DNA of 64,000 nt, from the IMG/VR virus record IMGVR_UViG_3300027977_000008, positions 107,944 through 171,943 of that record, one strand, 5' to 3'. The notes beneath the pieces were generated by a model. It saw only the letters and a program-made list of their open reading frames with translations, was not told where the DNA came from and did not search any database. Source of the stretch: a virus. The position numbers and the translations under genes are program-made. Of this stretch, positions 60,300 through 61,825 are shown piece after piece; the stretch's first letter is position 1; each line of letters opens with the position of its first letter.

Positions 60300-60403
60300 T
60301 CCCTGATAACATTGAAGAACTCGCAGCAGAATTGGAAGTCACTGTAGACTATTATCTTGCAGAGTTCTTTATACCATGTGACAGTTGCGAGACTGCATAC
60401 TAA
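60296..60403 (+). CDS. 35-residue acidic peptide
   Basis: A short acidic peptide (NIEELAAELEVTVDYYLAEF), ending with a CDSC pair that could bind metal. ATGA coupling upstream; its stop overlaps a terminator. Confidence 0.5.
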   Translation: MIPDNIEELAAELEVTVDYYLAEFFIPCDSCETAY

Positions 60404-60424
60404 ATCGCCTACGAGCGATTTTTT
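60402..60424 (+). terminator. Rho-independent terminator
   Basis: AAATCGC and GCGATTT form a perfect 7-bp stem around CTACGA, followed by TTT. Confidence 0.88.
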
Positions 60425-60459: not shown

Positions 60460-61038
60460 ATGACTACCTACCTAGAAGACAATCTGCTTCCGCTGATTTT
60501 GTCTATCAAAACTCCTAAAACTGATAGTTACATTATGATCGCTTCTGGTCTTGGTGATCGCACATCTCAAAGTAGCATTCTAATTCAAGTTGGTAATAAA
60601 CTTGAAAAGTTTTGGAACAATGTTATTAGTAAATGTGCTCATAATTTGATCGAAGTTAGTAATAAAATTAAAGTCAATGGCAAAAATCGTCAACTCGATC
60701 ATTTGTTTGAGTGTATGCCAGATACATACCTTTTGTATTTGGAATCGAAGTGCAATCTAAACTTTGATACTGAAAAAAAACCTGCCAGCAATGATAAAGT
60801 TGAAGCAGTGTGTGATGCAATTTCTGAGAAATACAATAGCGAAGTAACTGCTGGGTATTTTGTTCCTTGCATCCGTGAAGTTCCTGATGGTGTGAAGAAA
60901 AAGTATCCCGACATTAACATCTATGGTGTAGAATGGTTGATGAATACTATCAACTGTGATCTGTTTACTGTTGATGAGTTTTTTACATTCTTTGAGGAAG
61001 TTATTGGTCCTATTCTTGAAGAAAAGATTTATGGTTAA
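60460..61038 (+). CDS. Putative type II restriction endonuclease (PD-(D/E)XK)
   Basis: A 192-residue protein. NRQLDHLFECMPDTYLLYLE then SKCNLNFDTEK places D80 about 14 residues before E95-S-K97, the D...ExK core of PD-(D/E)XK nucleases; the following N-x-N-x-D-TEK pattern also occurs in type II restriction enzymes as I recall. It overlaps the Dam-type methylase gene by 8 nt, the classical R-M pairing, and is separated from upstream genes by a terminator. The function is inferred from motif and context; no family match was computed. Confidence 0.62.
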   Translation: MTTYLEDNLLPLILSIKTPKTDSYIMIASGLGDRTSQSSILIQVGNKLEKFWNNVISKCAHNLIEVSNKIKVNGKNRQLDHLFECMPDTYLLYLESKCNLNFDTEKKPASNDKVEAVCDAISEKYNSEVTAGYFVPCIREVPDGVKKKYPDINIYGVEWLMNTINCDLFTVDEFFTFFEEVIGPILEEKIYG

Positions 61039-61825
61039 ACCTGTCATCAAATATCAAGGCGGTAAAACTAAAGAATTGCCGTTGATTAAGCAACTCGCAC
61101 CTGAGCAATTCTCCCGTATTATTGAACCATTCTGTGGTGGTGCTGCGGTATCATTTAAATATGGATATTCGTGTATTCTCAATGATGTGAACCCTGCGGT
61201 AATTAATCTGTATAGGGTGATTGCATCCAAGGATTATGCTACCGTACAAAATAGAATTGATACGATCAAATCGTATGATCACGATGCGCTTGAGAAAGCA
61301 TACTATACTGCCCGTGATGTAATCAATCATCCTGGTGATTACAGTAGATTAGTGTACGCTATCTCATATATCATCGTTAGGCAATTATGCTTCAGTGGTA
61401 TGGAACGGTATAATGCTGCTGGACAATTTAATGTGCCATTTGGTCATTACAAAAAACTTTCTTGCAATCTATCACCAGAGCACCATCAATTCTTATCAAC
61501 CAAGGTAGAATTGCGTGAGGAAGATGGTGTCGAACTAATAAACCATTGTGATAAGAATGACTTTATCTTTCTAGATCCACCGTACATTGATCGTTTAGGA
61601 TATACAACTGGAGACGGTGGAAATGATCTGCACGATAGACTACTCCAAGCGATGAAATCTACTAAAGCGAAATGGTTATTCATTCACACAGATTGTGACT
61701 ATTATCGTGATAACTTGTCTGAGTTTGATATAAAAAGCGAAGAGTTTCGTTATGCACAGAACTTCGGTAAAGGTAAAGATCACTCAGGAGCAAAAGTATC
61801 ACACATTTATGTAAAGAACTATTGA
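61031..61825 (+). CDS. D12-class adenine-N6 DNA methyltransferase (Dam-type)
   Basis: A 264-residue protein with VIKYQGGKTKEL (SAM-binding motif), IEPFCGGAAVSF and the catalytic DPPYIDRLGY (DPPY), plus GQFNVPFGHYKKLS, the pattern of Dam/DpnM-type enzymes that methylate adenine, usually in GATC. It is co-encoded with the putative nuclease at 60460. GATC sites are abundant in the window, so the phage has not lost them. ATG 61031 is preferred over an upstream start inside the nuclease gene. Confidence 0.92.
   Translation: MVKPVIKYQGGKTKELPLIKQLAPEQFSRIIEPFCGGAAVSFKYGYSCILNDVNPAVINLYRVIASKDYATVQNRIDTIKSYDHDALEKAYYTARDVINHPGDYSRLVYAISYIIVRQLCFSGMERYNAAGQFNVPFGHYKKLSCNLSPEHHQFLSTKVELREEDGVELINHCDKNDFIFLDPPYIDRLGYTTGDGGNDLHDRLLQAMKSTKAKWLFIHTDCDYYRDNLSEFDIKSEEFRYAQNFGKGKDHSGAKVSHIYVKNY

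Follow-up and report, generated by a model that had tools for sequence, protein, structure and literature searches.

The DNA analysed here is a window of 64,000 nucleotides (G000:C1:107944-171943) from a viral contig of 171,943 bases. Because this contig encodes a T4-type gp23 (1.6e-151) together with two psbA/psbD-family proteins of the photosystem reaction centre, we assign it to a T4-like cyanophage. Near the end of the window lie two overlapping genes and an upstream hairpin, with the following features.

60402..60421, + strand: terminator-like hairpin, AAATCGC-CTACGA-GCGATTT and then a T tract, closing the preceding operon (a consensus match only)
60460..61038, + strand: putative PD-(D/E)XK restriction endonuclease P0001, 192 aa, phrog_26553 (from fold prediction, conserved residues, family profile matches and pairing)
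60604..60606, + strand: codon of E49, a helix-borne, family-invariant acidic residue (from the alignment; position derived from the residue number)
60697..60699, + strand: codon of D80, putative first catalytic acid, in RQLDH (from the alignment)
60742..60750, + strand: codons of E95-S96-K97, the E-x-K of the PD-(D/E)XK motif, in predicted strand 91-96 (from the alignment and the predicted structure)
61031..61825, + strand: Dam-family (D12 class) DNA N6-adenine methyltransferase P0002, 264 aa, with its ATG inside the nuclease gene (PF02086, TIGR00571)
61031..61038, + strand: 8-nt overlap of the nuclease 3' end and the methyltransferase 5' end (from ORF coordinates)

An earlier reading of the sequence alone had described a Dam-type methylase gene overlapping its upstream neighbour by 8 nt, and both parts of this description were borne out, with the ATG at 61031, nucleotides 61031-61038 shared and matches to both family models. 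The same sequence-only reading placed the pair behind its own terminator boundary, of which only the hairpin with its T tract was recovered: it lies approximately 38 nt ahead of the nuclease ATG and comes from a scan of 2.6 kb that returned four sites of this kind where 1.0 was expected. A promoter scan found no sigma-70-like promoter between this hairpin and the nuclease gene, which leaves a separate transcription unit for the pair no more than a possibility.

P0001 carries R77-Q78-L79-D80-H81, Y93-L94-E95-S96-K97 and N99-L-N-F-D-T-E-K106, which include, at exactly the stated positions, the residues (D80, E95-x-K97 and NLNFDTEK) by which it had been called a PD-(D/E)XK-type protein, and residue invariance and the predicted fold both agree with that assignment. 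The protein falls only in phrog_26553, whose function is unannotated. Used alone, it gave no significant match in Pfam, PADLOC or PDB sequence searches, and PDB sequence searches with P0001 and its profiles returned chance matches only. An identity as Phage_connect_2 (Pfam) was considered and rejected, the best E value in the family being 0.004 and P0001 scoring 13.2 bits where the cut-off is 24.3. Relatives annotated as 'hypothetical protein' occur in the Synechococcus phages S-WAM2 (77% identity) and S-CAM8 (47%), each immediately upstream of a methyltransferase, and a further 77 relatives were found in IMG/VR with peptide patterns spanning Y93-K106. E49, D80, E95 and K97 are invariant across 58 relatives and also in nine sequences with 19-27% identity to the first row of their own alignment, three of which (L175, L187 and L163) were retrieved via the methyltransferase and not via the nuclease motif. 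Because the search pattern covered Y93-K106, the weight of this observation rests on the invariance of D80 and E49, and on that of E95 and K97 in L175, L187 and L163. Where synonymous sites are unsaturated, pairwise dN/dS is 0.04-0.13, indicating purifying selection on the nuclease ORF. This selection, conservation in S-WAM2 and S-CAM8 and the invariant catalytic motif in 58 relatives argue that the ORF is not a chance one. Ten of 58 family members match the PADLOC REase_II profile PDLC03491 (best 1.1e-5), and the match of L072 spans the catalytic region. Two scans of genome contigs, and searches of plasmids, yielded no bacterial relative and hence none beside a methyltransferase.

An AlphaFold model of P0001 built from 58 sequences (pLDDT 88.8, pTM 0.86) has an alpha-beta-beta-beta-alpha-beta core of PD-(D/E)XK topology, made up of helix 37-59 (bearing E49), strands 69-72, 75-78, 81-84 and 91-96 (bearing E95), helix 110-125 and strand 129-134. 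A structural comparison had been proposed as a check on the nuclease assignment, and the top PDB fold matches of the model are indeed PD-(D/E)XK nucleases, among them cap-snatching endonucleases, Card1/Can2, McrC and Nt.BspD6I, at modest to weak scores (best E 5e-4, TM about 0.3-0.4). Matches in BFVD include K4I5X0, discussed below, as well as A0A6G6XMY6, A0A0P0YNF5 and M1HMA1, which may be restriction enzymes of algal viruses. P0001 is thus predicted to possess both the fold and the catalytic residues of a restriction endonuclease.

The downstream product, P0002 (METHYLTRANSFERASE), belongs to the D12/Dam family, with 136.6 bits against PF02086 (1.6e-39, cut-off 22), 158.2 bits against TIGR00571 (cut-off 114.85) and the DPPY and EPFCGG (SAM) motifs of D12 enzymes in its sequence. 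Its closest solved structures are M.DpnII 1 (2dpm, 2.6e-20) and E. coli Dam, both GATC enzymes. The GATC contacts of E. coli Dam are K9, L122, R124, P134 and Y138; in an alignment of P0002 with 2g1p, four of these five (K9, R124, P134 and Y138) are retained and L122 is replaced by Met, and the same four residues are invariant across nine diverse P0002 relatives. Given its nearest solved relatives and these retained contacts, GATC is the likely target of P0002.

We also counted 4-bp palindromes. In the window (1-64000) most of them are strongly avoided, with observed/expected ratios of 0.29 for AGCT, 0.31 for CCGG, 0.56 for GTAC and 0.61 for TTAA, and GATC is not (0.93); the ratio for GATC in related loci is 0.88, and 12.6 kb of S-WAM2 gave 0.03 for GTAC and 0.14 for AGCT. 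In the Salmonella phage STML-198 and the Klebsiella phage KP179 (L093 and L094), GATC is strongly avoided (0.21) though both encode Dam-type enzymes. Because of this avoidance, and because protection by methylation is inseparable from an absence of selection, we draw no conclusion on specificity from the GATC counts.

Seen from the nuclease side, the pairing is persistent. A D12 methyltransferase lies in the fetched neighbourhood of 58 of the 77 IMG/VR relatives, directly downstream in 51 and upstream in seven, and most of the other 19 sit on contigs cut off, on one side, within about 10 kb. Related samples contributed near-duplicates to the IMG/VR loci, and locus counts therefore do not equal independent events. 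On a 176.7-kb contig (G004) the methyltransferase lies approximately 10 kb from the nuclease across the contig ends, if circular permutation is assumed, and in L064 (G010) approximately 9 kb separate the two genes, which share a strand. Only in L043 and L044 did approximately 10 kb of upstream contig hold no visible partner, the L044 contig having been searched in part. A different arrangement is found at L072:870-3343, where a P0001-family nuclease sits between two N6_N4 (PF01555) enzymes in a methyltransferase-nuclease-methyltransferase triplet and a D12 gene is absent.

Searches with P0002 and profile A3 gathered further loci, and from the methyltransferase side the nuclease appears to be exchangeable. 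The P0001 family is present in 52 of 79 distinct methyltransferase loci. Elsewhere the immediate upstream gene encodes a different nuclease-like protein, separated by gaps of up to approximately 30 nt or overlapping by 4-17 nt, and start-stop overlaps of 4-8 nt recur among the pairs. The alternative partners are as follows.

L124, L127, L154 and L185: HQIDM...RELKTNTDLDRGK, a remote P0001 homologue
L144 and L173: HKVDILIV...NSKG, nuclease-like
L174: EPDFF...EMK, PADLOC REase_II (4.9e-14)
L175: VDVLF...YYLEVKSNLTLDSEK, a remote P0001 homologue
L150 and L151: HNH, PF01844 (1.4e-16)
STML-198 and KP179: VDIV...DVK, Hjc-like

In profile comparisons, the catalytic motifs of L175 and of the L124 group line up with those of P0001 (hhalign 6.9e-10 and 7.7e-8, respectively), and L174 shows a weak alignment to the family profile (2.5e-4), whereas L144/L173 and STML-198 have no sequence relation to P0001 detectable in this way (hhalign E 0.51 for STML-198). 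The structure predicted for the L124 group from four sequences was unusable at a pLDDT of 46. A quick methyltransferase tree with SH-aLRT support only requires ten or more changes of partner type, and it puts the L124-type partner at four separate positions, three of them forced by well-supported branches. In all seven records examined that have a different nuclease in the slot, the P0001 family is missing, although some of these are short contigs. Within one marine sub-clade (L096-L111), no adjacent nuclease is seen on the short contigs available, and on this basis the methyltransferase can apparently stand alone, some members possibly being orphans. These contigs often end just past the methyltransferase, near genes for a UvsW-like helicase or for oxygenase-like and FAD-enzyme-like proteins. 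On one of them, after a helicase downstream of the methyltransferase, L102:4220-4768 encodes a 183-aa protein without a Pfam match that has a DFEWEDKKIELK stretch, possibly of the PD-(D/E)XK type.

Many related viruses carry the pair, often with another nuclease beside the methyltransferase. The expectation of the sequence-only reading that such a unit would be unusual in a lytic T4-like phage did not hold: contigs of T4-like cyanophages commonly contain the cassette, and the T4-like Salmonella and Klebsiella phages have a comparable pair. The methyltransferase of the latter two is approximately 42% identical and its start overlaps an upstream gene for a PD-(D/E)XK-like protein, which we equate by phage and length with the BFVD match K4I5X0, although this protein lacks detectable sequence homology to P0001. 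In STML-198 and KP179 the pair sits among rIIA-rIIB-denB-ndd-motA-type genes, the host-takeover cluster of T4.

As in Type II systems of the DpnII/MboI (GATC) kind, a nuclease gene adjoins a D12 methyltransferase gene whose product has M.DpnII 1 as nearest solved relative, and one alternative partner (L174) is a PADLOC REase_II; unlike in those systems, the cyanophage pair is encoded by a lytic tailed phage, its nuclease family is unannotated, and a persisting methyltransferase lineage has changed its nuclease partner again and again. The nearest viral precedents are the CviAI-like, GATC-specific systems of chloroviruses and marseilleviruses, in which a methyltransferase and a restriction enzyme always occur side by side in a lytic dsDNA virus (PMC7019647, PMC7253447). 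In chloroviruses, the role ascribed to the restriction enzymes is degradation of host DNA (PMC7019647), whereas marseillevirus GATC restriction-modification spares host DNA and rival viruses are its proposed target (PMC7253447). The cyanophage locus resembles these systems as an adjacent pair that may be directed against host or rival DNA, but they belong to viruses of eukaryotes, whereas the pair described here is that of a bacterial virus and undergoes partner swapping. We found no report of the cassette in open-access literature.

We consider it very probable that P0001 and P0002 form a phage-encoded, Type II-like restriction-modification cassette with an interchangeable nuclease. This is the best explanation because the methyltransferase keeps a nuclease for company while the nuclease itself is swapped, including for a recognised Type II enzyme. 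The restriction-modification unit put forward in the sequence-only reading thus draws support from the predicted fold, the conserved residues, the matches of some family members to a Type II restriction enzyme profile, the persistent pairing and the repeated nuclease replacement. Against it weigh the lack of a significant direct match for P0001 itself, the weak PDB fold scores, the failure to find a bacterial relative beside a methyltransferase and the L096-L111 methyltransferases, seen on short contigs without a neighbouring nuclease. In such a cassette, P0001 would act as a PD-(D/E)XK endonuclease (E49, D80, E95 and K97) that cuts a short site lacking adenine methylation. The overlapping Dam-type enzyme would methylate that site, most likely GATC, in the phage's own replicating DNA, and methylation of a recognition site common to both enzymes would protect the phage genome. 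The likely use during infection would be to cut the host chromosome, unmethylated competing phage DNA, or both. Cyanophages are not known to have the T4-type modification of cytosine. We give about even chances to a broader proposal, namely that an offensive restriction-modification module is spread across T4-like phages, cyanophages and enterobacterial Straboviridae included, and that it combines one conserved adenine methyltransferase lineage with interchangeable nucleases (several PD-(D/E)XK groups and an HNH enzyme), presumably specific for the same site, against the host chromosome or rival phages, as a methylation-protected alternative to the cytosine modification of T4. Restriction-modification is usually viewed as a bacterial defence, and a widespread phage version in abundant marine viruses would, if true, imply offensive use and offer a testable explanation of how cyanophages could destroy the DNA of hosts or rivals yet spare their own. 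It would also give a proposed function to the unannotated family phrog_26553 and several of its neighbours, and the nucleases swapped around a constant methyltransferase would represent a natural collection of enzymes, all of which can be expected to recognise the same site.

What the nuclease is for bears on the strongest competing account, in which P0001 is a host-DNA degradation nuclease, a cyanophage counterpart of T4 EndoII/EndoIV that serves nucleotide scavenging and host shut-off, with the methyltransferase as self-protection. This account is compatible with restriction-modification biochemistry, and we put its chances somewhat below even. The location of the STML-198/KP179 pair within the rIIA-rIIB-denB-ndd-motA cluster speaks for attack on the host chromosome, and the role ascribed to chlorovirus enzymes points the same way; the marseillevirus system, which leaves host DNA intact, is a precedent for the opposite, and we prefer neither use over the other. 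P0001 could instead be a homing endonuclease of the free-standing kind whose gene spreads next to that of the methyltransferase, the swaps being independent homing events. Such enzymes are common in T4-like phages. F-CphI is described as a cyanophage example (PMC6083498); the HNH partner of L150/L151 would also suit this idea. Yet the P0001 family is found upstream or downstream of the methyltransferase, approximately 10 kb off, or beside non-homologous methyltransferases, so the nuclease tracks methyltransferases and not a single insertion site. Together with the recurrent 4-8-nt start-stop overlaps and the recognised Type II enzyme of L174, this makes homing very unlikely.

Two further possibilities concern the biochemical activity of P0001. 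If this nuclease depended on modification, as DpnI does, or if P0001 were a DNA-binding protein that has decayed or is non-catalytic, the methyltransferase alone would counter host restriction, which would fit the absence of direct matches between P0001 and characterised enzymes and the methyltransferases seen without an adjacent nuclease. However, a nuclease that requires methylation would be suicidal next to a self-methylating enzyme, and decay is at odds with invariant catalytic residues and low dN/dS, leaving this possibility a slimmer chance than homing. MutH is a PD-(D/E)XK relative of GATC restriction enzymes whose usual partner is Dam, and P0001 could by analogy be a strand-discriminating nickase that works with Dam methylation in mismatch repair. 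We find this scarcely credible: neither P0001 nor its relatives matched MutH or any other GATC-enzyme model in Pfam, and swaps to an HNH nuclease and to unrelated PD-(D/E)XK groups speak against a conserved repair interaction.

The proposed restriction-modification cassette also differs from T4 Dam and other orphan phage Dam enzymes, which are of the same D12/Dam family as P0002 but have no cognate nuclease, whereas the P0002 lineage usually has one. The cyanophage genome itself carries a second D12-class adenine methyltransferase gene outside the window, at G000:C1:63081-63809 (PF02086, 5.5e-33), whose product has 21% identity to P0002. On another cyanophage contig, of 6.4 kb and without a methyltransferase, two diverged copies of the P0001 family stand in tandem (L059:1226-1912 and 2183-2749).
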